From Moraxella osloensis (GTDB taxonomy: Bacteria; Pseudomonadota; Gammaproteobacteria; Pseudomonadales; Moraxellaceae), in the NCBI RefSeq assembly GCF_001553955.1, contig NZ_CP014234.1, positions 1,116,001 to 1,180,000 of the forward strand: a stretch of 64,000 nt of DNA, written 5' to 3'. Numbering within the stretch: position 1 is the stretch's first letter; the number at the start of each line of letters is the position of its first letter. The position numbers and the translations under genes are program-made. A model generated the notes under the pieces. It had not been told where the DNA came from, did no database searches, and saw only the letters and a list, made by a program, of their open reading frames with translations. Positions 14,901 to 32,393 of the stretch are shown one piece after another.

Positions 14901-16695
14901 AAACCGCCATCAGAATCTGGTGGAAAAGTTCGCCATCGCATAGATGGTTTAGAAAATCAACGGTGCCGAAAACTTTGCCACCACCATGTTCGCCATCGCA
15001 TAGATGGTTTAGAAAATCTAGCCAACTTTACCCCATGTCAATTAAATGTTCGCCATCGCATAGATGGTTTAGAAAAGTCTTGAATTTCTTGAGAACGCTC
15101 TAAACGGGTTCGCCATCGCATAGATGGTTTAGAAATTGTACCAACAGTGGCTAATGTGGATTAACTAGTTCGCCATCGCATAGATGGTTTAGAAAATCAT
15201 ACAACTAAGCGTCCTTGCTTCCTGTGGGTTCGCCATCGCATAGATGGTTTAGAAACAAATCCAAAAAGTTTGAAACCACTTGTTATTGTTCGCCATCGCA
15301 TAGATGGTTTAGAAACCCCTGTTCCTGCTGTCCCTAACGATGGGGCGGTTCGCCATCGCATAGATGGTTTAGAAATTAAACGTGGCTTTAATAACGCCAA
15401 TTTATCAGTTCGCCATCGCATAGATGGTTTAGAAAGATGTCCCCGCTTTGTGATTTTTTATCTACGTGTTCGCCATCGCATAGATGGTTTAGAAATCATA
15501 AGCAGTAGGTAAGATTTTTCGAGTATTGTTCGCCATCGCATAGATGGTTTAGAAATGTTTTAGATTATCTCGCTAATGTGCAAGCTGGTTCGCCATCGCA
15601 TAGATGGTTTAGAAAAATAGCATCAATTATATCAGTAGGGTCAAACGGTTCGCCATCGCATAGATGGTTTAGAAAAGCGATTGCACCGCCCACGATACCT
15701 TTTGCGAGTTCGCCATCGCATAGATGGTTTAGAAAAGTCGCTCCGTTTTTGTTCGCTACAATGAGAAGTTCGCCATCGCATAGATGGTTTAGAAATTGAT
15801 GAAAAGACGCTCGCTCTGGTCGAACGCGTTCGCCATCGCATAGATGGTTTAGAAACAAACCAGTTAACACAACAGTTAGAGCCGCAGGTTCGCCATCGCA
15901 TAGATGGTTTAGAAATAGCATTTTTGCTAGTTCTTTTTGGTCGCCTGGTTCGCCATCGCATAGATGGTTTAGAAAACTAATCATGATTAATACAGTGCCA
16001 TTTTGACGTTCGCCATCGCATAGATGGTTTAGAAAAAATGCGCTATCCCTGCCATATCACCGAGAAAGTTCGCCATCGCATAGATGGTTTAGAAACATTC
16101 AAAGATGGTAAGCCAAAAGTATTTTATGTTCGCCATCGCATAGATGGTTTAGAAATGCGCCAGACGATTGGCACGACTTACCAAATAGTTCGCCATCGCA
16201 TAGATGGTTTAGAAAGCAAAGATTGACATTCGGATTTTCGCTAAGTTGTTCGCCATCGCATAGATGGTTTAGAAAAACAGGCGCAGTATTTGAACGATTG
16301 AATTTCAGTTCGCCATCGCATAGATGGTTTAGAAATATCAATCGCTGAATTTTGCCAGTCTGTAGTGGTTCGCCATCGCATAGATGGTTTAGAAAAAAAT
16401 CGACGATAGCAAACACACGCTTGCGTCGTTCGCCATCGCATAGATGGTTTAGAAATAAAATGGGGCAAAAATACGCAAATACGATGGGTTCGCCATCGCA
16501 TAGATGGTTTAGAAATTTAGCCGCCTTGTAGCGCGTTAAAATCGCATGTTCGCCATCGCATAGATGGTTTAGAAATAAAATCATTGACATGGCTATATCA
16601 ATGCCAGGTTCGCCATCGCATAGATGGTTTAGAAAAAGTTGGCGCAACGGTACACACGGCAAACCATGTTCGCCATCGCATAGATGGTTTAGAAA

Positions 16696-18472
16696 AAGAT
16701 CATCTTGTTTATCAAACCAATAAATATGTTCGCCATCGCATAGATGGTTTAGAAAATCATGAAAATGCACCTATTTAAATCCAATGAGTTCGCCATCGCA
16801 TAGATGGTTTAGAAAGGCAGAGAAGACTATGAAGGGTTTGACCCATCCGTTCGCCATCGCATAGATGGTTTAGAAAAATTAGATATCATCGCCAAGCATC
16901 AAATGGAAGTTCGCCATCGCATAGATGGTTTAGAAAACCATGCCCATGCGATGTTTGCAAAAACTATCGTTCGCCATCGCATAGATGGTTTAGAAAAATA
17001 AAGTCCGTGGTTTTGACTTCTTTTAGCCCGTTCGCCATCGCATAGATGGTTTAGAAAAATGCCAACAAAAACAGGACACCCATCATGAAGTTCGCCATCG
17101 CATAGATGGTTTAGAAAAGCAACAGCGGCTAAAAGAGCAGGCATTTATAGTTCGCCATCGCATAGATGGTTTAGAAATTTTCCATGACCGTTAGCGGCAG
17201 TAACTAAAAGTTCGCCATCGCATAGATGGTTTAGAAAAGCAGTAACAAGGGTAAAACCGATACTTGCAAGTTCGCCATCGCATAGATGGTTTAGAAATTC
17301 TGGTGGTGGGTGTTCTGGGTCGTCTTGTTGTTCGCCATCGCATAGATGGTTTAGAAATGAATATGAAAAGTTGTTTCAACAATATGCGAGTTCGCCATCG
17401 CATAGATGGTTTAGAAAAACCTTGGATGAAATGCGCTCAATCTTGTTTCGTTCGCCATCGCATAGATGGTTTAGAAAACCAAATAGCGCTCAGCGATATC
17501 TGGGTAATCGTTCGCCATCGCATAGATGGTTTAGAAACTGCCCCGCCACCTCAAGCGGATTTACACGATGGTTCGCCATCGCATAGATGGTTTAGAAAAC
17601 AAACGATCCGTAATGCTAAAAAATATGTGTGTTCGCCATCGCATAGATGGTTTAGAAAATTATTATCTGATGGTGAAAAAGGCTGTTGAAGTTCGCCATC
17701 GCATAGATGGTTTAGAAAACCAGCACGGAAGCGGTCAGTTTCCTTAACATGTTCGCCATCGCATAGATGGTTTAGAAAAAGATCATCTTGTTTATCAAAC
17801 CAATAAATATGTTCGCCATCGCATAGATGGTTTAGAAAATCATGAAAATGCACCTATTTAAATCCAATGAGTTCGCCATCGCATAGATGGTTTAGAAAGG
17901 CAGAGAAGACTATGAAGGGTTTGACCCATCCGTTCGCCATCGCATAGATGGTTTAGAAAAATTAGATATCATCGCCAAGCATCAAATGGAAGTTCGCCAT
18001 CGCATAGATGGTTTAGAAAACCATGCCCATGCGATGTTTGCAAAAACTATCGTTCGCCATCGCATAGATGGTTTAGAAAAATAAAGTCCGTGGTTTTGAC
18101 TTCTTTTAGCCCGTTCGCCATCGCATAGATGGTTTAGAAAAATGCCAACAAAAACAGGACACCCATCATGAAGTTCGCCATCGCATAGATGGTTTAGAAA
18201 AGCAACAGCGGCTAAAAGAGCAGGCATTTATAGTTCGCCATCGCATAGATGGTTTAGAAATTTTCCATGACCGTTAGCGGCAGTAACTAAAAGTTCGCCA
18301 TCGCATAGATGGTTTAGAAAAGCAGTAACAAGGGTAAAACCGATACTTGCAAGTTCGCCATCGCATAGATGGTTTAGAAATTCTGGTGGTGGGTGTTCTG
18401 GGTCGTCTTGTTGTTCGCCATCGCATAGATGGTTTAGAAATGAATATGAAAAGTTGTTTCAACAATATGCGA
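16696..18472 (+). repeat. Interrupted duplication of a 12-spacer block near the distal end of the array
   Basis: Twelve spacers at 16696-17389 (from AAGATCATCTTGTTTATC to TGAATATGAAAAGTTG) recur in the same order at 17779-18472, an offset of 1083 bp. Six unrelated spacers (17418-17750) separate the copies. The two 33-nt spacers of the block are kept in both. A tandem duplication of 18 spacers followed by loss of six from the second copy, or exchange between two array variants, would give this. Confidence 0.93.
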
Positions 18473-18680
18473 GTTCGCCATCGCATAGATGGTTTAGAAA
18501 GACAACCTTGCCGCCAACGTCTTTTACCGCATGTTCGCCATCGCATAGATGGTTTAGAAAGCCAACGTCTTTTACAGCATCACCGACCCCGAGTTCGCCA
18601 TCGCATAGATGGTTTAGAAATGTCGACATTCAAACGCCAGAACTACCGCAAAGTTCGCCATCGCATAGATGGTTTAGAAA

Positions 18681-21190: not shown

Positions 21191-23074
21191 ATGCAATATG
21201 CTAAGCCCAAAGTCTATTGGCTGATGCTGATAGGTGTAATATTTTCAATATTAAATACCACCACTTCTTATGCTGCTCCGATTTGTCCTAGCGGTGATAA
21301 AATGTATTATGTCGGGGCAAATGCTCCCTCTGGGTCTACCCGTTTAGCATTGTCATGGACGGCTGGCAGTACCAGTAGAACTTTTAACTTCACTGATGGT
21401 ACAGGTACGACCATGACCGTCAGTTTTCCATTATTAGTTGACCTAAATTCGAATTATGGCGGAAATCCTCCCTTTTATGGCAATATTAATAATACAACGC
21501 AAAATGCCCTAAATTTAGTGCATAATTCACCCGCTATTAAAGATAATCATACAATGACTATTTCAGTGAATCGTGCCGTTACTAAATTAAGCTTTGTCGT
21601 TCAAGATTTGGATTCTGCTGCCAATAATAGCGGTCAAGTCGCTTATCAGGAGCAAGTCGATGTTTCTAGCACTAGCGGACAGTTAACTTATAATACTTAT
21701 TACCATACAATTAATGCGAGTAATAATATTGTCACGGCTATCAGAAGTCGAAACTGTGACCTTAATGGTTGTAATATCGATGCGACTTGGGGGGCTAAGT
21801 CTGCAAACAGTATCTTCAGTATCACACATAGTAATCGATATACACAACTTAATTCACCTCATGCAGTGGGTTACTCAGACTTTTATTTCTGCGTTACCCC
21901 GCCCAAGCTGACAACTAGAAAAGTTCTAACAGGCAACCGTGTCGAAACAAATGACCAATTTACCATTGCCACTACCACAGGTACAACGCCTGTTAGTAGC
22001 TTTACCACCACAGGCACGGGTAGCAGCTTAAGCAGCAACAGTGTAACCGCCCCAGGGCTTTCCACTACCGCGACCTACACAATCGCTGAAACCATCGCTA
22101 ATACGGACGGTAAAGGAAATTTAGCCAATTATAACACCAGTTATGCCTGTACCAATGCTAACTCATCTTCGGCGACCACCATGCCGAGTGGTTCAACCAC
22201 TAGCTTTAATCTACCGACTTTGACCTATGGAGACGATATTACCTGTACCATTACCAATACGCCCAATGCTTATATTTTCTCTGGCATCATATTTAACGAT
22301 AACGGTGGCTTAACTTTAACAGAACGTCAACTCACTGGTACCAATACTCAATACTTTAATGGTGTGTATGATCCAACCGCAGGTGAAACAGGAATTTATC
22401 AAACAGGGCTAAAAGTACAACTAGCAAAGAACTGTAATACCACAACTCCTATAGCTATTAAAACGGTTGATGTGAATACAAATGGTACTTATAGCATTAC
22501 CGCGACCCAAACTGAAATGGCAGGTGCAACCAATGTCTGTCTGATTGAACAAGAACCAGGTGGTAACTTAACAACATACCCTGTGGATACCACCAACAAC
22601 CAGCTCAATATAAACTATGTTGCCACGACCTATAACTATCCCAATCTCAACTTTGGTGAAGTCAGCCAAAATAACGCAGGCTTAGTATTGGTTAAAGAGC
22701 AAGCTACCAATGATTGTAATATCACCAATACCGCTATGTTAGGCTTGACTTATAACGCTGTCACTCAGTCAGGTATCGATGCTCGCAAATGTGTTGCTTA
22801 TAAAATCACAGCTTACAATCGTACCAATTTAACCAATGGATTAACTGATATTAAAATCACTGACGCGCTACCGAAAAAAGGCGTCAATGGCTCTACAGTT
22901 AACTCACTATTAGACAATCCTTTAGATACTACGTTAACTAACTTCAAAGTTGACACTGCCAATAGTGTGGCAATTGGCGCAAATGGTACAGTAGTTAGTG
23001 ATGTTCAGTCACTAGCCAAAGGCGCTAGTCGTTCACTGTATTTCAACACCAAGTATGACGCTAATTCAAAATAA
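21191..23074 (+). CDS. Exported multidomain surface protein with SpaA-like, SdrD-B-like and DUF11-like modules
   Basis: The 627-residue protein starts with a signal peptide ending near residue 29 (...TTTSYAA/PICPSG). Residues 30-235 form a Thr/Ser/Asn-rich beta domain I do not recognise. A SpaA/prealbumin-like repeat follows at about 238-357, ending in the typical YGDDITCTITNT. An SdrD-B-like module (FSGIIFNDNGG...NYPNLNFGEV) covers about 358-492, and a DUF11-like module with paired cysteines (ATNDCN...RKCVAYKITAYN) ends the protein. Such modules are extracellular beta sandwiches of adhesins and pilus-like proteins. There is no LPXTG or barrel, so anchoring must come from a partner. A terminator follows at once, so this is a unit of its own at the head of the cluster. 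The true role is not known. Confidence 0.6.
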   Translation: MQYAKPKVYWLMLIGVIFSILNTTTSYAAPICPSGDKMYYVGANAPSGSTRLALSWTAGSTSRTFNFTDGTGTTMTVSFPLLVDLNSNYGGNPPFYGNINNTTQNALNLVHNSPAIKDNHTMTISVNRAVTKLSFVVQDLDSAANNSGQVAYQEQVDVSSTSGQLTYNTYYHTINASNNIVTAIRSRNCDLNGCNIDATWGAKSANSIFSITHSNRYTQLNSPHAVGYSDFYFCVTPPKLTTRKVLTGNRVETNDQFTIATTTGTTPVSSFTTTGTGSSLSSNSVTAPGLSTTATYTIAETIANTDGKGNLANYNTSYACTNANSSSATTMPSGSTTSFNLPTLTYGDDITCTITNTPNAYIFSGIIFNDNGGLTLTERQLTGTNTQYFNGVYDPTAGETGIYQTGLKVQLAKNCNTTTPIAIKTVDVNTNGTYSITATQTEMAGATNVCLIEQEPGGNLTTYPVDTTNNQLNINYVATTYNYPNLNFGEVSQNNAGLVLVKEQATNDCNITNTAMLGLTYNAVTQSGIDARKCVAYKITAYNRTNLTNGLTDIKITDALPKKGVNGSTVNSLLDNPLDTTLTNFKVDTANSVAIGANGTVVSDVQSLAKGASRSLYFNTKYDANSK

Positions 23075-23091
23075 TTAAATTTTATAAAATT

Positions 23092-23118
23092 AAAAAGACC
23101 ATTAATGTGGTCTTTTTT
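23092..23118 (+). terminator. Intrinsic terminator
   Basis: AAAAAGACCA-TTAATG-TGGTCTTTTTT hairpin with a T-run 18 bp after the stop of the 627-residue surface protein. Confidence 0.8.
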
Positions 23119-23550
23119 ATTGCTACATTTATTTACAATTTTTAAGAAGCCAGTTGCTTATGAGTGGTAGATTTACACGATGAACGGTCGAAAATTACTA
23201 AAAATTAATTTTTAATACTGCCTATGAAAATATTTATATGATTGAAACTAATTTTCAATTTTTCTAAACAGTTAATAATTCATTTAAAATCAAATATTTG
23301 GTTAAATGTTTCTTTTATTAATCAAAAAAACAAAAGTTAAATAAAAGCTTAATTTATATTAGATTGTAAATTGATAGAATGCCTCAACTAAAGTTCTAAA
23401 TATTAGCGCATTATGAAATTTTAGTCGATAAAAGGTTTATCACTTGAAATTTGCATTTTATCGCTTTTTCGACTTTCTTTCGGTATCAACATGCTAATAA
23501 TGAAATTTATTAAGGTATAATGTACGTCAGATAACAAAAGAGGTATTTAC
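23119..23550. other. Long AT-rich intergenic region upstream of the DUF11 cluster
   Basis: About 430 bp without a plausible gene. The stretch is very AT-rich and carries several TATAAT-like hexamers (for example GGTATAATG near 23514), so the promoter for the following genes is probably here. I see no repeat, tRNA or known riboswitch. Confidence 0.5.
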
Positions 23551-24024
23551 ATGATACACAAATCACACAATTTAAAAATTGCCAAAACTTTAGCCCTATC
23601 CACTGTATTAGGCATAAGTTTGGCAAATGGTGCTAATGCCGCAGAGGCATTGACAGTTAATTTACAAGCAAAACAGGTTGTTACTGAAAATGGTAAGCCG
23701 GTTCTAAAAGCTGTAAGCCGTGCCAAAAGTGGTGATGTCATTCAGTATCAAGCAACTTACCGTAATAACCTTCAAAAACCAATGACGAATGTTGCGTTAA
23801 CCATTCCAGTGCCTGCCAGCATGGTATATGTCAGCTCAAGTTCACCTGCGCCCATTCAAGCCAGTCTAGATGGTAAGAAGTTTGAGAATTTGCCAATCAT
23901 GCGTAAGGTCAATGGCAAAATGGTTGAAGTACCCGCGTCACAGTATCGTGCCGTACGCTGGATAGTCAAAACTTTACCTGCACAGCAAAGTGCCACTGTT
24001 AGTATCAATACCAAAGTTCAGTAA
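23551..24024 (+). CDS. Small exported single-domain DUF11-like protein
   Basis: The protein has 157 residues with a clear signal peptide (MIHKSHNLKIAKTLALSTVL...ANGANAA). The remaining 125 residues form one DUF11-type beta sandwich: SGDVIQYQATYRNNLQKPMTNVALTIPVPASMVY and the C-terminal LPAQQSATVSINTKV are the hallmark strands of conserved-repeat (DUF11) domains. It has no anchor. It is followed after 103 bp by a larger DUF11 protein and by a barrel protein, and I infer that all act together at the cell surface, this one perhaps as a subunit or cap. Function unknown. Confidence 0.65.
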   Translation: MIHKSHNLKIAKTLALSTVLGISLANGANAAEALTVNLQAKQVVTENGKPVLKAVSRAKSGDVIQYQATYRNNLQKPMTNVALTIPVPASMVYVSSSSPAPIQASLDGKKFENLPIMRKVNGKMVEVPASQYRAVRWIVKTLPAQQSATVSINTKVQ

Positions 24025-24127
24025 AGCGTGATTTTAATTATAAATGTTTAGCTGTTACACAGAACGTTTTATCTAGATAAGACGTTTATATCTTAACCCT
24101 AATATTTTTTGCTTTTCGGAGTAATGC

Positions 24128-26149
24128 ATGAAAAAATTTAATTTTAACCCTAATGCACTGACAGCTGGCGTGGCGTTAGCCTTGGGCTTGGGTATTGCAA
24201 CAGGTGTATCAGCAAGTACATCATCCGGTCCGGCTTCCCCATCTGGTGGCGTTCAAATCTCGAATACGGCGACTGCTGAATATTCAGTTGACGGTGTAGC
24301 ACAGCCTACTGTTACTTCTAATGCAGTTATCGTGAATATCAATGAAATTGGTAGCTTTGCTTTGTATGCTACACAAGGTTCATCACCCACTGATGACAAA
24401 AACGAAAATCAAGCAGCTGTTCCGGGTGGCACTACTACCTTTACCAATAAATTAATCAATACTGGTAATGTGACCGACACTTATACATTAAATCTTACAA
24501 CTAATAACGATCCTAACATCACAACGGGTCCCCAAGATTACACTTATACCAACCCTACTACTATTACTTATGCTATCTATAATGCAGACGGTACAGTTGC
24601 AACTACATTAGCTTCAGGTCAAGCCCAAACTGGTACAGTTGCTAGTACGAATGGCACTATTAAGTTATTACCAGGTCAATATGCTACATTGACTTATAAT
24701 GTCACTAGCCCAACGACCGTTATTGGCGGTCAAAGTGCGGTTGGTACCTTAACTGCAACTAGTAGCTATATCACCAATACTCCAACAGCTGGTGCAACAG
24801 CAACGCTTGTCAATGAAAACCAAGCTATTGTTAAATTGCCAGTATTTGCCATCAGCAAAACGGCTGCCTCTACTAACATTGACTTAAATGCTGCTTCACC
24901 TGCCGTTGACTATACTATCATTGTGAAAAATGATGGTACTGCAACTTATGCAGCAGATGCAATTGGCGTCTTAATTCAAGATAAACTACCAACTGGATTG
25001 ACGGTATCAGGCGCTATTACCGTAACTTCTGATAATAGCACTACGAGTAATGGTACGGCACCAACTGTGACTACATTAGCGGACGGTCGTCAACTGATTG
25101 CTATCAATGGCGTTGACTTGAAAGTCAATGAAACCATAACAATCACCTTTAAAGCAGCTATCGATCCTACAAAGGTCAATAAAGCGGGCGTTACCAATGC
25201 TGCTGAAGTCTATGACAACTATGACAATACGCTTGTAACACCTGGTGATACACCAACAGCTGATATTAAAGATAGCTCAGGTACTAGCAACCCAACTGAT
25301 GCAAAAGTACCGGACGATCCAATGGATACAGGTACAGGCGCCGATACTAGCACGCCAATTACATTTAGTGATCGTAGTTTGACACTCACAGGTGGTACCA
25401 GTACTGAGTTACCACCAACCAGCACATCTACTGGCGTGACTTATACCCAAACCATTACCAACACAGGTAACAATCCTGAAACTGGTTTGAAAGTCGCCAT
25501 CACTGATGCAGCTGGTAACAATATCAATGTAACGAATGTTGTTTATACCGCACCAGATGGTACTAGAACTGAACTAACAGCTGATGCTAGTGGTAATTAC
25601 ACCATTCCGACTCCTTTAGCAGCGGGCGCATCAGGTACAATTAGCTATACGGTTGTTACAACAGACGCTACGATTGGCACAAGTGAAACTAATACCATTA
25701 CATTAATACCAGCTAGGGTCGATGGTACAACAAAGCCTATCGTTCCTTCAGTGCAGAATACTACAAATGTCAAAGGTCTAGCGCTTCTTAAAACCCAAGC
25801 GATACAAAAATTTTGTACAGGTGACGTTAATTCATTAACTTACAGTGGCAGTGAGAAATCACTTGATGCCATTCCTGGCGACTGTATTGTATATCGTATT
25901 GCTGCTACTAATACCTTTACTAGCAAATCATTAACTAACGTCACTGTTAATGATGATTCTGATAAGTGGTCATCTAAAAAGGGTACTTATCAATCTGGCA
26001 GCATTCTAACAGGTACCAACCAAGCTACGGGCTCTATCACAAGTACACCATCAGGTACACCTAATACTGGCGCAGTTGTTGCTAATTTCCCAACCATTGC
26101 TGCTGGTAATACGGGTACTTTACAATTTATTGTAAAAATTAACCCATAA
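24128..26149 (+). CDS. Exported multi-repeat DUF11-like surface protein
   Basis: The 673-residue protein has a signal peptide (ALTAGVALALGLGIATGVSAS) followed by four beta-sandwich modules: about 35-235, 240-400, 415-548 and 549-673. The DUF11 signature is clear in FAISKTAASTNIDLNAASP...VDYTIIVKNDGTATYAADAIGV and in TQTITNTGNNPETGLKVAI. The last module starts LALLKTQAIQKFC and has a second Cys in GDCIVYRIAATN; it resembles the last module of the 627-residue protein at 21191. Composition is Thr/Asn/Gly-rich with almost no other Cys. No membrane anchor is visible. A ribosome site (TTCGGAG) precedes the ATG. It probably is transcribed with the barrel protein that follows 104 bp later. Confidence 0.65.
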   Translation: MKKFNFNPNALTAGVALALGLGIATGVSASTSSGPASPSGGVQISNTATAEYSVDGVAQPTVTSNAVIVNINEIGSFALYATQGSSPTDDKNENQAAVPGGTTTFTNKLINTGNVTDTYTLNLTTNNDPNITTGPQDYTYTNPTTITYAIYNADGTVATTLASGQAQTGTVASTNGTIKLLPGQYATLTYNVTSPTTVIGGQSAVGTLTATSSYITNTPTAGATATLVNENQAIVKLPVFAISKTAASTNIDLNAASPAVDYTIIVKNDGTATYAADAIGVLIQDKLPTGLTVSGAITVTSDNSTTSNGTAPTVTTLADGRQLIAINGVDLKVNETITITFKAAIDPTKVNKAGVTNAAEVYDNYDNTLVTPGDTPTADIKDSSGTSNPTDAKVPDDPMDTGTGADTSTPITFSDRSLTLTGGTSTELPPTSTSTGVTYTQTITNTGNNPETGLKVAITDAAGNNINVTNVVYTAPDGTRTELTADASGNYTIPTPLAAGASGTISYTVVTTDATIGTSETNTITLIPARVDGTTKPIVPSVQNTTNVKGLALLKTQAIQKFCTGDVNSLTYSGSEKSLDAIPGDCIVYRIAATNTFTSKSLTNVTVNDDSDKWSSKKGTYQSGSILTGTNQATGSITSTPSGTPNTGAVVANFPTIAAGNTGTLQFIVKINP

Positions 26150-26253
26150 TAGTTATTTCTTTTGAAAATTTAAAATTTTAAGGTTTAGGGATTTCATTAA
26201 TCCCTAACCCACCCAACTTTTATAAATTTATTTTGATAAGTGAGAAACTATTA

Positions 26254-29200
26254 ATGACAAATAATCGTCATAATTCGACTAGATATCACAGCTTGGGTAA
26301 GCTTGGCTTACTTGCGAGCAGTATCTTGCTTATCCAAATGAATCCTGCGCTGGCAGCAAACGGTCGTAATATTATCCAAATCGATAATACCGCAGATGCC
26401 AATTATGTGGTTGATAGCCATGAAGGCATTGTTAATACAATAAAATCAAACACGACCCGTGTTCAAGCTTTTTCTTTGCCCAAATACGACATTACTCTCA
26501 CCCAGCCACTCACTATCACCATCAAACCTGGTAATGAAGTGCAGTGGCGAAACACCCTAGAAAACACAGGGACTTTTGATGCCAATGTTGCGGTCAGCTT
26601 TAACACGCCCAACACGCTTTCAAACTTCCAAGTATATATTGATGCCAATAACAATGGCATTATTGATAGCAATGAGACCGAGCTACAGCCTACGATAAGT
26701 ATCGCGGCAGGCGAGCAAATTCATCTGATTGTCAAAGCATTGACCAGCACCGAGCTTAAAGATGGCGACACAGTCGATGTACCCATCACCGCGGTAGTGC
26801 AAGAGGATAACACAGTACAAGCTAGCGCAACGGATAGCTTAGTGGCTATCTTGCCAAGCATTGCATATAAAGACCCAACTTACCAAAACAACCTGAGTCA
26901 AACCTCTGCTGGACAGCCTGTCTATATTGAAGTCGGTCTTGCCTACTGTAATGCCGATCCAACACAGGTTGACAATGTATGGCTCAATGTTACTTCTAGC
27001 AAAACAGGCGATACCATTCGTCTAAAAGCCATTGAAACAGGGGTAAATACGGGTAAATACCGTATCTCAGCCCCTACCGAGCTCAATGCCAATGCCATTG
27101 CCGATGCCGTCATTCAGACATTAGATGGTGATACGTTAACAGCCCAAGCCGATAAGTGTGAAAGTGCCGATGGTAGCAGTACTGGGGTGATTTCAGACAA
27201 AATCTTAACATCAATCAATGTTAATAACACTCAAACCGCGTTAAGCATTACCAAAAAAGCGAATGTCAAATCTGCTGAAATTGGGGATTTTGTTGATTAC
27301 ACCATCAAAGTCAAAAATGAAAGTAAAACCGATGCGGAAAACGTGGTGGTCAAAGACGATTTACCCTTAGGTTTTACCTATGTCAAAAACTCGGTCAGAG
27401 TGGGTGGTCAAAAATACACGCAAGATTTTGTCCAATCTGGCAAGTACATGACATTGGGTTTAAACAGCCTAAAAGCCAATGAAACCAAAGAAGTCACCTA
27501 TCGTGTTGTTTTAGGGGCTAATGCTGCTTCAGGTACAGGCACCAATATCGCATTTGCAGAAGGTAAAGACTCATTAACTGGCAGTGTCGTTCAATCGCCC
27601 TTAGGTGAAGCGCATGTTGACGTAACAGCTGGCGTATTAAACACCGATGGTATTATTATTGGTAAGGTATATGCCGACTTTAACCGTGACGGTATACAGC
27701 AAAAAGCGCAAAATGAACTGGGTGTCGCTGGTGTTCGTTTATACCTTGAAGACGGTACCTTTGTTGTCACAGATAGCGAAGGTAAATACAGCGTGTATGG
27801 CATGAAAGCCAAAACCCACGTTATCAAACTTGACCGTACCACCCTACCGCGCGGTGTTGAACTGGTTGAGCAAAGCAATCGCAATGCAGGCGATCCAGGC
27901 AGTCGTTTTGTTGACTTAAAATTTGGTGAATTGCATCGTGCAGATTTTGCGATAACCGATGGGATCGACAGCAATGATAACCAAGGTCATGCTGCATTAA
28001 TTAGCGATTTGCAAAAACGCGCCAAACAAATTGCCTTAAAAAATGATGCGCTTGAACAGGCTATCAAGACTGATCTTAAACTAGAACCTATTTATACGAT
28101 TGATAATACTAGCAATATTGAAGCCTCTGGCTGTAAAAACCCCAATATCGCTGATGGTCAAATCAACTGTGAATCCGTGATTGCTGACAATACAGCGCCC
28201 GTCAAAAAAACCGGGCAGCTAGAAGTTCATCCGATTGCTCCTGTCAAAGCCCCTGATATTGAAAAAGCCCTATCGACAGCCGATGACAAGCGTATTGAAG
28301 GCGTGACAGCCGATGCAGATTTTTTAAATTTGACCCATAACCAACGTGTCGATAGTACAAAAATCCGCGTTCAAATTAAAGCACCCAAAGGCGCAAATAC
28401 TGAGCTACTCGTTAATAACCAACCGGTTGATACAAGCTTGATAGGTAAAGAAGTCGCTTGGGATAAAGAAGGTATCTCAGGTTTTGACTATTATGCAGTG
28501 CCTCTTGAACACGGCAACAATACTTTAACTATCCGTGCAACAGATAGTACAGGCAAAGTCGTTTCTAGCAAATCTATTAACCTATATGCGCCTAATCAAA
28601 TCGCAGATATTACCACGCGTACACACTCACAAGCCATTGAAGCTGACGGCGTTAGTGAATATCAAATTGCAATACGTTTGCTTGATACCGATCATGGTCA
28701 ATATGCAGGCTCTGCGACTATCACCTTAGATAGTGACATTGGTACGATTGTTTCTAATGATATGGATAAAGACCAAGCGGGTGTGCAAGTGCTAGTGAAT
28801 GGTGGTGAAGCACTGATCGCTATACGTGCACCAAGCAATCCTGGTAAAGGTAATTTGGTAGTTAAAGCAGGTAATTTACAAAAAATTATCCCACTACAAT
28901 TTACCCCACAATTACGCCCAATGATCGCAGCAGGTATTGTTGAAGGCGCTATTTCCTTTAACAACCTTGGCTCAAAAATTGAATCTGTTAGCAACAATGA
29001 CGGTTTTGAACAAGAATTACGCAGTCTATCAGGCAATGATAGCGATAACACCACAACTGGTCGTGCCGCATTTTTCTTAAAAGGTAAAGTGCGCGGCAAT
29101 ATGTTATTGACCATGGCATATGATTCCGATAAAGACAAAAAAGATCGTCTATTTCGTGATATTAACCCCGATCAATACTACCCAGTATATGGGGATGCCT

Positions 29201-31521
29201 CTGCCAAAGGTTTTGATGCCCAGTCTAGCGAAAAATTCTATGTGCGCCTTGATAAAGGCCGCTCATTCGTGATGTATGGCGATATCAAAACCCATATCGA
29301 CAACGAAGAGGGCTTGTCACTCGGTCAATACGACCGTACCCTAACAGGTGCAAAAGCGCACTACGAATCCGATAAAACCAAAGTCACTGCCTTTGCGGCA
29401 CAAACGAGCTCACGCCAACATGTCACAGAAACGCGTGGTTTAGGTATTTCAGGTCCTTATCCTACCGGTGTTGATTTCGCTGATTTATTACTTAATAGCG
29501 AAACTGTGGAAGTGCTTGTTCGTGACCGCAATAACCCAGGTACCATTATCTCTCGTCAAGCGCTCAATCGTTATAGTGACTACGATTTTGATAGTGTTAG
29601 CCATGCTATTTATCTACGCGCACCGATTGCTAGCACGGATATTGATGGCAACCCCATTTATTTGCGCGTGACCGTTGAAGCGGATGATGTTGGTGAAGAC
29701 TATACCATTGTCGGTACCGCTGGTAACTATCAGCTCACCAAACGAGTGAATATTGGCGCAAGCTATGCCCAAAGTGACGACCCCACCAATAACGAAAAAC
29801 TCTCAGGGGTGAATAGCGTTGTCAAATTTAACGATAAATTAAAACTAATCGCTGAGGTTGCCCATTATGATTCGGATAAAATCAATGACTCGCTTGCATC
29901 AGCCATTAATGTTCAAAGCTTAAATGCAGAGACATCCGGTGATGCGGCGCGCGTTGAATTGACTTATAAAGACAAAGCACGCGATGCCAAATTGTATTAC
30001 AACCAAGCCGATGAAGGCTTTACGCCTGCAACTTCACCTATTACTGCTGGGCGTACTGAGGCTGGCTTGAGGGTCAATAGCCGTATTAATGATAAAACCT
30101 TGCTTAAAGCTGAAGCCATTCAAACCAAAGACCACACCAATGACAGCCAACGTCAGGGTGCGACGGTCAGTATTGAGCGTAAACTTACCGATATCTTAAC
30201 GGGTGAATTGGGCGTACGTTACTACGAAAAAGATGCCAAAGCGGCTTCCACCAATTATCAAGAAGTGGTCAATACAGATGCATTTAATCAATCCATGCGT
30301 CCAAGTGTTACCAATAATGACAGCAATTATCAAGGTACGACGCTTCGTGGTAAATTGACTGCGAATTTACCAACATTGAATAAATCAAAAGTGTTTGTCG
30401 AATACGAGCAGGATATTGATGATGCTAGCCGTAATGCGTGGAGTGTGGGTGGTGAAACCAGCCTATGGAATAAAGGTCGCCTATATGCGCGTCACGAATT
30501 GGCATCAACCTTAATCGGTGATTATGGCTTAGATGGCAATGATGAGCACCAATCAACCATCATTGGTGTTGATGCTAACTACATGAAAGACGGTCAAGTA
30601 TTTAGTGAATACCGTATTAAAGATGGTATCTCTGCCCGTGAATCTGAAGCGGCGATTGGCTTACGCAATAAATGGAAAGTGCAAGATGGCGTCTACGTCA
30701 ATACATCATTTGAACACCTTGAATCTATGCAAGGTGAGAGCGACAACACAGCAACAGCAGCAACGGTAGGTATTGACTACTTAGCCAGTGACAAATATAA
30801 AGTGAGTGGGCGTGTTGAAAAACGTTGGGGCGTACAAACCGACACCTTGCTGACGAGTTTTGGTTATGCCAACAAAATCAATGATGACATCACCTTGCTA
30901 GCCAAAAATATCTATTCGCTGCAAGAAGATAACACCCAAAATAAAGACCGCACTGTAGATCGTTTCCAATTGGGCGTGGCTTATCGTGACTACGATAACA
31001 ACATCAGCGACCATCTAGCAAAAATTGAATATCGCTATGACAATAACGGTCTAGATGCAGATAGCCCTTACAAAAAAGAAACCTATATTGCTTCTTTACA
31101 CAGCAACTATCATCCTGTACGCCGCTTGACTTTATCGGGTCATTATGCGGGTAAATACAATGAACTCACTATGGATGGAGTCACCAGTGATAGCACCTCT
31201 CAAGTATTATCCGCTCGCGCCATGTATGACATCAACGAACGTTGGGATGCGGGTATCCAAGCGGGTACCATGTGGAGCGATAATGACTCACGTAATTATT
31301 TAATCGGAGCAGAGGTGGGTTATACACCCATGGCAAATCTGTGGGTTTCTGCAGGTTACAACTTCAAAGGCTATCATGACGATGATATCGCCAGTGGCAG
31401 CGACAACCAACAAGGGGCGTATATCCGCTTACGTTTCAAATTTGACGAAGATTTATTTAACAAAAAACGCCCTACCGTCAATAGCCGTATGATGCCAAAC
31501 GGTGAGGTCACAACCAAATGA
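26254..31521 (+). CDS. Giant outer-membrane protein: DUF11 + SdrD-B + Ig-like domains and C-terminal beta-barrel
   Basis: I start at the ATG at 26254 (1755 residues); a TTG at 26233 is in frame but less likely. A signal peptide (LGLLASSILLIQMNPALAANG) is followed by beta-rich regions, a DUF11 domain at about 329-450 (LSITKKANVKSAEIGDFVDY), an SdrD-B-like domain at about 465-570 (GKVYADFNRDGIQQKAQNEL), Ig-like domains at about 699-882, and from about 889 to the end a large beta-barrel with many alternating short strands, ending AYIRLRFKFDEDLF near the C-terminus. The segment DINPDQYYPVYGDASAKGFD is typical of a poorly studied group of such surface barrel proteins. I infer that it is anchored in the outer membrane and displays or exports the DUF11 partners. 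Its stop overlaps the next start by 4 bp. Confidence 0.7.
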   Translation: MTNNRHNSTRYHSLGKLGLLASSILLIQMNPALAANGRNIIQIDNTADANYVVDSHEGIVNTIKSNTTRVQAFSLPKYDITLTQPLTITIKPGNEVQWRNTLENTGTFDANVAVSFNTPNTLSNFQVYIDANNNGIIDSNETELQPTISIAAGEQIHLIVKALTSTELKDGDTVDVPITAVVQEDNTVQASATDSLVAILPSIAYKDPTYQNNLSQTSAGQPVYIEVGLAYCNADPTQVDNVWLNVTSSKTGDTIRLKAIETGVNTGKYRISAPTELNANAIADAVIQTLDGDTLTAQADKCESADGSSTGVISDKILTSINVNNTQTALSITKKANVKSAEIGDFVDYTIKVKNESKTDAENVVVKDDLPLGFTYVKNSVRVGGQKYTQDFVQSGKYMTLGLNSLKANETKEVTYRVVLGANAASGTGTNIAFAEGKDSLTGSVVQSPLGEAHVDVTAGVLNTDGIIIGKVYADFNRDGIQQKAQNELGVAGVRLYLEDGTFVVTDSEGKYSVYGMKAKTHVIKLDRTTLPRGVELVEQSNRNAGDPGSRFVDLKFGELHRADFAITDGIDSNDNQGHAALISDLQKRAKQIALKNDALEQAIKTDLKLEPIYTIDNTSNIEASGCKNPNIADGQINCESVIADNTAPVKKTGQLEVHPIAPVKAPDIEKALSTADDKRIEGVTADADFLNLTHNQRVDSTKIRVQIKAPKGANTELLVNNQPVDTSLIGKEVAWDKEGISGFDYYAVPLEHGNNTLTIRATDSTGKVVSSKSINLYAPNQIADITTRTHSQAIEADGVSEYQIAIRLLDTDHGQYAGSATITLDSDIGTIVSNDMDKDQAGVQVLVNGGEALIAIRAPSNPGKGNLVVKAGNLQKIIPLQFTPQLRPMIAAGIVEGAISFNNLGSKIESVSNNDGFEQELRSLSGNDSDNTTTGRAAFFLKGKVRGNMLLTMAYDSDKDKKDRLFRDINPDQYYPVYGDASAKGFDAQSSEKFYVRLDKGRSFVMYGDIKTHIDNEEGLSLGQYDRTLTGAKAHYESDKTKVTAFAAQTSSRQHVTETRGLGISGPYPTGVDFADLLLNSETVEVLVRDRNNPGTIISRQALNRYSDYDFDSVSHAIYLRAPIASTDIDGNPIYLRVTVEADDVGEDYTIVGTAGNYQLTKRVNIGASYAQSDDPTNNEKLSGVNSVVKFNDKLKLIAEVAHYDSDKINDSLASAINVQSLNAETSGDAARVELTYKDKARDAKLYYNQADEGFTPATSPITAGRTEAGLRVNSRINDKTLLKAEAIQTKDHTNDSQRQGATVSIERKLTDILTGELGVRYYEKDAKAASTNYQEVVNTDAFNQSMRPSVTNNDSNYQGTTLRGKLTANLPTLNKSKVFVEYEQDIDDASRNAWSVGGETSLWNKGRLYARHELASTLIGDYGLDGNDEHQSTIIGVDANYMKDGQVFSEYRIKDGISARESEAAIGLRNKWKVQDGVYVNTSFEHLESMQGESDNTATAATVGIDYLASDKYKVSGRVEKRWGVQTDTLLTSFGYANKINDDITLLAKNIYSLQEDNTQNKDRTVDRFQLGVAYRDYDNNISDHLAKIEYRYDNNGLDADSPYKKETYIASLHSNYHPVRRLTLSGHYAGKYNELTMDGVTSDSTSQVLSARAMYDINERWDAGIQAGTMWSDNDSRNYLIGAEVGYTPMANLWVSAGYNFKGYHDDDIASGSDNQQGAYIRLRFKFDEDLFNKKRPTVNSRMMPNGEVTTK

Positions 31522-32393
31522 AAGTAATTTTTATTCAATCAAGCGTAGCAGCTTCGACTCAGTTATCAAAAATACGCTTGTCATTACTGAGTCTGATAGT
31601 GATGACTGGTTTGGCTGCTAACACCGCAAATGCGGCATTAGCAAGTCAGGTTTTGCCAGTCAAATATCACGCAGGACAATACTGCCCTAGCGATATGAAA
31701 GCATTTGTACCAAAAGGCACGGCTCACAAGAATTTTGTTGCGGATATTTCTTGTATGCGTCAGCAGCTGCAAGCCTATCAAGCGGAGCACCAGCCAATCA
31801 ATACTCGCTTTCAAGCTTATAAAGCCGATGCATGGCTAAGCTATGTGGGACATGAAGATAGTGAAGCAAGCTTGACTAAAGCCGGTCATTATGCGCTGAA
31901 CGAAGCATTGAGTATCCTTGAAGCGCTAAAAACCAATCAAGTGGATAAATTACCACTGACAGCTGATATCCCGCCGACCTCTGGTTTACAGCGTCCCGAT
32001 CTTTGGGCAAGTCTTTTAACCATTAAGCAAACGCCTGCATTCACCCCGCTGGTCAAAACGGTAGCCGATAGTGAAGTCAAACTGATTTGGGCAGAAGCAG
32101 AATTTTGTGAGTTTGGTTGGCGTCATTCTCGCGAACATTATAGTGCTGCTGATCGCTGGGTCGCTACGGCTGAGTTAACCGCCTTAAATACATCAGGCGT
32201 GGATAAACAAAGCTTTAATGGGTTAAAAACTCAGTATTTGGCGCGCTTAAAGCCGCTTGCTGGCACTAAAGACAGTAAAGAAATTTGCCGTGGCGCTGTG
32301 TTACCTTATATCGAGCTACCCAAAGTTGGCATAACTGAGCCCAGCCCGCAACCTCTGCCACTGCCTGTTGTACCTGTTGCATCCCCTCATTGA
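31518..32393 (+). CDS. Exported protein of unknown function, coupled to the giant barrel protein
   Basis: The 291-residue protein overlaps the end of the barrel gene by 4 bp (ATGA), so the two are translationally coupled and probably form one system. A signal peptide with a long n-region ends near residue 40 (LSLIVMTGLAANTANAALA). The mature part is mainly helical in character and has four cysteines (GQYCPSD, DISCMRQ, AEFCEFG, KEICRGA), which could form two disulfides in the periplasm. The C-terminus is proline-rich (EPSPQPLPLPVVPVASPH). I do not recognise the family. A periplasmic or peptidoglycan-facing partner of the barrel is a reasonable guess. Confidence 0.6.
   Translation: MKVIFIQSSVAASTQLSKIRLSLLSLIVMTGLAANTANAALASQVLPVKYHAGQYCPSDMKAFVPKGTAHKNFVADISCMRQQLQAYQAEHQPINTRFQAYKADAWLSYVGHEDSEASLTKAGHYALNEALSILEALKTNQVDKLPLTADIPPTSGLQRPDLWASLLTIKQTPAFTPLVKTVADSEVKLIWAEAEFCEFGWRHSREHYSAADRWVATAELTALNTSGVDKQSFNGLKTQYLARLKPLAGTKDSKEICRGAVLPYIELPKVGITEPSPQPLPLPVVPVASPH

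Follow-up and report, generated by a model that had tools for sequence, protein, structure and literature searches.

Five exported-protein genes at one locus

The window analysed here is a 64,000-nt stretch of the Moraxella osloensis genome (NZ_CP014234.1, 1,116,001–1,180,000, forward strand), and gene positions are counted from its start. It carries a run of five genes, A to E, where a preceding sequence-only reading had placed five genes for exported proteins; all lie on the plus strand, and each product begins with a signal peptide, as judged by eye (Table 1). The D stop and E start codons overlap as ATGA, in agreement with the translational coupling proposed in that reading. A and B are separated by 476 bp that hold a terminator-like hairpin, and A is therefore probably transcribed separately from B onward; promoter and terminator scans of the region returned nothing above shuffle expectation.

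Table 1. Features of the A–E locus, in window coordinates
Feature	Position	Strand	Description	Basis
Gene A	21191..23074	+	Exported, 627 aa; sequence hypervariable among relatives; candidate cargo	ORF, SpaA_3 match, variability
SpaA_3 prealbumin-like domain of A	21908..22264	+	Residues 240–358	E 5e-28
C-terminal module of A	22676..23071	+	DUF11-like, with Cys pair; resembles that of C	
Hairpin 3' of A	23092..23117	.	Terminator-like; not above shuffle expectation	
Gene B	23551..24024	+	157 aa, one DUF11-type domain; conserved; putative assembly subunit	
Gene C	24128..26149	+	Exported, 673 aa; sequence hypervariable among relatives; candidate cargo	
C-terminal module of C	25763..26146	+	DUF11-like; Cys pair Cys563 and Cys586	
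Gene D	26233..31521	+	1762 aa if started at TTG, 1755 aa if at the ATG of 26254; C-terminal barrel preceded by Ig-like modules	
First Ig-like module of D	26362..26856	+	About residues 44–208; absent in two relatives lacking A and C	
DUF11 (CLIPPER) domain of D	27241..27564	+	Residues 337–444; isopeptide triad K341-D375-N438	
SdrD_B domain of D	27664..27864	+	Residues 478–544	Profile match
Predicted outer-membrane barrel of D	28912..31518	+	About residues 894–1762	Alignment and model
D stop/E start overlap	31518..31521	+	ATGA	
Gene E	31518..32393	+	291 aa exported protein; C-terminal OmpA domain of homologues absent here	

Besides the SpaA_3 domain of A, searches of Pfam and NCBIfam identified a DUF11-type repeat in B (TIGR01451, 2.6e-6, over the cut-off), DUF11 (2e-15) and SdrD_B (7e-8) in D, and sub-threshold matches only in C (RrgB_K2N_iso_D2 and DUF11-type); E had no match in either collection, and profile searches found no OmpA domain in A to E. 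The C-termini of A and C are formed by similar DUF11-like modules, each with a Cys pair. In the DUF11 domain of D, K341, D375 and N438 align with the Lys-Asp-Asn isopeptide triad reported for PDB entry 9IFR, and these residues are invariant in 78/78 D sequences. D thus qualifies by sequence as a CLIPPER (DUF11) domain protein with an isopeptide triad, the bond itself being predicted. A of the window also has a SpaA_3 triad, which is less constant among relatives.

Elsewhere in the window, positions 16008–18680 hold a CRISPR array in which GTTCGCCATCGCATAGATGGTTTAGAAA recurs, in at least 45 exact copies, at a spacing of about 60 bp; the array may begin before 16000. It contains a segmental duplication (16665–16964 is identical to 17748–18047), so that several spacers occur twice.

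Recurrence of the cluster and its OmpA partners

The D barrel was found in 91/199 Moraxellaceae genomes and E in 78/199; most of the 20 loci whose neighbourhoods were read show A-B-C-D-E or the core B-C-D-E in the same order. A scan of GTDB contigs yielded 79 named loci from Psychrobacter, Alkanindiges, Acinetobacter, Agitococcus and Fluviicoccus and from metagenome-assembled genomes labelled Betaproteobacteria, Burkholderiales, Geobacteraceae, Desulfuromonadales and Thermodesulfovibrionales. These loci were picked on D alone, so the co-occurrence of neighbours is not built into the sample, and neighbour counts cover only loci whose flanks permit the test. C lies upstream of D in 67/70 testable loci (Psychrobacter 35/38, Alkanindiges-type 3/3, Acinetobacter 20/20, other 9/9), B upstream in 65/67 (36/38, 3/3, 19/19 and 7/7, respectively), and E downstream in 66/77 (43/43, 4/4, 12/20 and 7/10). 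The 8/20 Acinetobacter D loci without an adjacent E imply that E is dispensable or encoded elsewhere. Loci from Geobacteraceae and Desulfuromonadales (L158 and L160), which are more distant relatives, keep the same gene order. Judged from these sequences, different genera share this gene order, and B-C-D(-E) keeps it between phyla, to an extent that is more than chance. The sequence-only reading had held that the genes belong together, and the neighbourhood search by which it proposed to check this returned conserved order across genera; the relatives it expected in Acinetobacter and Psychrobacter were found, and the family is not confined to those genera, reaching far beyond Moraxellaceae. 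Looser relatives of the barrel occur in 57/398 genomes sampled across the phylum.

Within the genus of M. osloensis itself, D is present in only 2/6 genomes and one more has E alone, A to D missing between PPK2 and metH; by this sequence comparison, the cluster is accessory in the genus. The E of locus L063 (genome G033, same genus, A to D absent between PPK2 and metH) is 76% identical, and a Trp that is almost always conserved is replaced in it by Cys. Among other individual loci, the Psychrobacter-type L081 (G193) has intact B and E and a fragmented D, apparently a decaying copy, and one Psychrobacter genome (G115, loci L068 and L107) carries a tandem pair of D genes with their own B and C.

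Most relatives outside Psychrobacter have an OmpA domain in the locus, and in most of them, including Alkanindiges, several Acinetobacter, Agitococcus and Geobacteraceae, it forms the C-terminus of E; profile searches found none in E of Psychrobacter. By homology, E in the window is what remains of an anchor protein of the OmpA type after loss of the OmpA domain, which adds to its earlier description as an exported protein. Two further arrangements were observed. In L171–L191, from another family of the phylum, D itself contains the OmpA domain, placed ahead of the barrel; these D proteins are only about 25% identical to D of the window over the barrel. In L206–L208 and L212, it is the C-terminus of a 2000–3000 aa DUF11 adhesin encoded beside a 1100–1240 aa D-like barrel. 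The usual site of action of OmpA domains is the periplasm, and for this reason a periplasmic location is probable for the part of D directly preceding the barrel, at least for the OmpA-fused relatives.

The adhesin of L212 has 2129 aa and nine DUF11 matches, its adjoining gene encodes a D-family barrel, and its residues 708–828 match 9IFR (E 7e-69). Its length and the matched residues agree with B9T28_05395 of Acinetobacter silvestris, the 2129 aa protein from which, according to passages of PMC12617251, residues 708–828 were crystallized as 9IFR; those passages do not discuss the neighbouring D-family barrel. Both that locus and the present one combine a DUF11 stalk bearing an isopeptide triad with a D-family barrel next door, and a D-family barrel adjoins a DUF11 protein here as it does beside the OmpA-anchored DUF11 adhesins. 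However, in A. silvestris a single adhesin bears both stalk and OmpA domain, whereas in the window distinct genes encode the stalk proteins, the barrel and E, and E has lost its OmpA domain. Across these loci, sequence evidence indicates that D-type barrels recur in combination with DUF11 proteins and a peptidoglycan-binding domain, in layouts that differ between loci.

Variable proteins, conserved proteins and the predicted D barrel

Among the 33 Psychrobacter loci with all parts, mean pairwise identity is 0.29 for A (a figure depressed by variation in its length among loci), 0.33 for C and 0.51 for E, and 0.68 for the N-terminal part of D, 0.69 for B and 0.83 for the barrel. The length of C is confined to 620–729 aa in the Psychrobacter loci, and its divergence is therefore not a length effect. 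Because A and C are hypervariable while B and D are conserved in Psychrobacter, the pattern fits a division into exposed, diversifying cargo (A and C) and conserved machinery (B and D). In L152, L153, L155, L158 and L160, E is followed by an extra protein of 1760–2160 aa ending in a C-type C-terminal module, possibly a variable cargo in place of A.

Two Psychrobacter lineages lack both A and C. In P. frigidicola (L110; also L240), the alignment of D to D of the window begins at residue 177, and in the second lineage (L114, L069 and L239) at 208; both therefore have a D without the first Ig-like module, with different break points. All C-bearing loci examined have a full-length D. Locus L100 has a full-length D including the first module, yet no neighbouring A, B or C. 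The loss of this module is associated with the absence of A and C (Fisher p 0.004, 38 loci), in a test that ignores relatedness, and the joint loss is for that reason only suggestive.

The region comprising D residues 886–1762 (877 residues) was modelled from an alignment of 56 sequences, giving a pLDDT of 77.5 and a pTM of 0.70 with some low-confidence stretches; this model supersedes a weak earlier one from 19 sequences (pLDDT 65). It is almost entirely antiparallel β, with about 36–40 strands counted from the DSSP line, an inexact count that takes into account a small domain inserted near model residues 185–255. The C-terminal region of D is thus likely an outer-membrane barrel of unusually large size, as predicted from the sequence before any model was available. 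It matches no curated Pfam or NCBIfam family, its 56 relatives gave only weak, scattered matches to generic barrel families, a barrel-profile search of PDB sequences returned nothing credible, and a BFVD search found generic barrels and tail fibres only. Foldseek and VIA-align comparisons of the model returned MtrB, SlpA, ushers, LptD, porins and SprA, all with low TM-scores or tied Z-scores; since so many unrelated barrels tie, the model supports the fold class and singles out no relative.

Sequence searches were also made for known secretion systems. None of the five proteins contains a TpsB/POTRA or TPS domain, as would be found in two-partner secretion, and the intimin/invasin β-domain is absent among the Pfam and NCBIfam matches of D and its 56 relatives at the E-values listed. 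The Fil operon was tried as an identity for the cluster and rejected. Inverse autotransporters of the intimin/invasin type (type Ve) combine a barrel, a peptidoglycan-binding domain and an Ig-like stalk, as the present family does; in D, however, the order is reversed, with stalk modules first and barrel last, and there is no intimin-type barrel match.

The T9SS translocon SprA is a 36-strand barrel whose cargo carries a C-terminal β-sandwich domain as its signal (PMC10994853). The very large barrel and the C-terminal β-sandwich domains of the candidate cargo recall it as a functional parallel only: as an identity for D, SprA was rejected (Foldseek rank 7, E 4e-6, but TM-score 0.19). The SprA/Sov family TIGR04189 was touched by 2/56 D sequences, the located match covering 78 residues at E 0.0085, with a best score of 13.3 bits where the cut-off is 200, and no protein of this genome exceeds that cut-off. 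No significant sequence match links D to the T9SS, no T9SS motor or PorV partner was seen next to the cluster, and the host does not belong to Bacteroidota. The closest experimentally tested analogue is ZirTS of Salmonella, in which a barrel and a separately encoded exported protein share one operon and the barrel is needed for secretion of its partner (PMC2270342). The resemblance lies in the pairing of a barrel protein with a separately encoded exported protein; by contrast, ZirT is an intimin/invasin-type barrel protein of 660 aa, whereas the D barrel is C-terminal, about 865 aa long and of another sequence family, and the cluster has several cargo candidates and, in relatives, an OmpA-type partner.

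Proposed export and display of DUF11/SpaA proteins

Taken together, we put at about even (roughly 0.5) the probability that the cluster serves specifically to export DUF11/SpaA β-sandwich surface proteins across the outer membrane and to display them, D being the exporter or platform. All five proteins would enter the periplasm by means of Sec signal peptides, and D would insert into the outer membrane through its predicted C-terminal barrel. Its conserved Ig-like modules (the first module, the isopeptide-type DUF11 domain and SdrD_B) may reside in the periplasm or in the barrel lumen, a placement suggested by the OmpA fusions in relatives. A and C, with their shared C-terminal Cys-pair module, would be the cargo. 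The first N-terminal module of D would contribute to their recognition, and they would be exported through the barrel or docked on it to build a stable, adhesive layer or fibre on the cell surface; their transport via D is inferred. B, a conserved protein of one domain, may be a subunit that assists assembly or resembles a chaperone. E would tie the complex to peptidoglycan through OmpA in relatives, and in the window the loss of OmpA would leave a conserved, probably helical partner domain. The earlier proposal that the barrel displays or assembles unanchored DUF11 proteins is in line with D as a likely exporter or platform. Its view of the N-terminal half of D as a passenger is not upheld: this half is conserved like machinery, and in relatives OmpA sits between it and the barrel.

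Those two observations also bear on the idea that D is a self-displaying, autotransporter-type adhesin whose own Ig-like half is threaded out, with A, B and C binding there after leaving by another route. A C-terminal barrel preceded by Ig-like stalk modules is indeed the layout of classical autotransporters, DUF11 and SdrD_B are typical of surface stalks, and in the OmpA-fused forms the stretch preceding OmpA could still be exposed. Yet the N-terminal part of D is conserved (68%, Psychrobacter) where A and C are hypervariable, an OmpA domain intervenes before the barrel in relatives, no other outer-membrane route for A to C is encoded nearby, and D does not match the classical autotransporter β-domain family; this explanation appears rather unlikely. 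The OmpA domains on E or in D of relatives, and the SlpA structures among the best Foldseek matches to the barrel, would suit D and E acting mainly as an envelope tether and large porin resembling SlpA of Deinococcus, on which A, B and C sit as surface-layer proteins. SlpA is just one of many tied matches, however, the OmpA domain is missing in the window and in Psychrobacter, and a cluster present in 2/6 genomes of the genus is unlike a housekeeping tether, which makes such a role distinctly unlikely.

Chaperone-usher pilus assembly shares with the cluster its Ig-fold subunits and large barrel, here with a small inserted domain, and the small Ig-like B could be cast as chaperone, D as usher, and A and C as subunits joined by strand exchange; usher chains even top the VIA-align list. 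The usher fold is a 24-strand barrel with a plug, and the Z-scores of the usher matches (13–15.6 for FimD and PapC) are tied with those of LamB and other porins, the Pfam usher family PF00577 matches none of the 56 D barrels and no protein of this genome, and a profile-profile comparison with Moraxellaceae ushers was weak (57% probability), confined to barrel strands and not taken as kinship. We consider this assignment improbable.

Under the export and display reading, the cluster would be a variant of barrel-dependent surface display, and no description of it was found in the open-access literature. A more tentative extension, which we hold to be possible if on the doubtful side, is that the D family is an outer-membrane protein translocon of a new class, in which one polypeptide forms a barrel of ~36–40 strands and both exports and displays isopeptide-stabilized DUF11/SpaA adhesins under peptidoglycan anchoring in several Gram-negative phyla; in sequence, the barrel shows no recognizable kinship with ushers, TpsB, autotransporters or SprA. 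The open-access literature likewise yielded no account of how DUF11 (CLIPPER) adhesins cross the outer membrane. These adhesins are widespread in Gram-negative bacteria, and the cluster supplies a candidate exporter, cargo and anchor for them. Since the one crystallized Gram-negative CLIPPER adhesin adjoins the same barrel family, the question of its export could be addressed by the deletion of a single gene.
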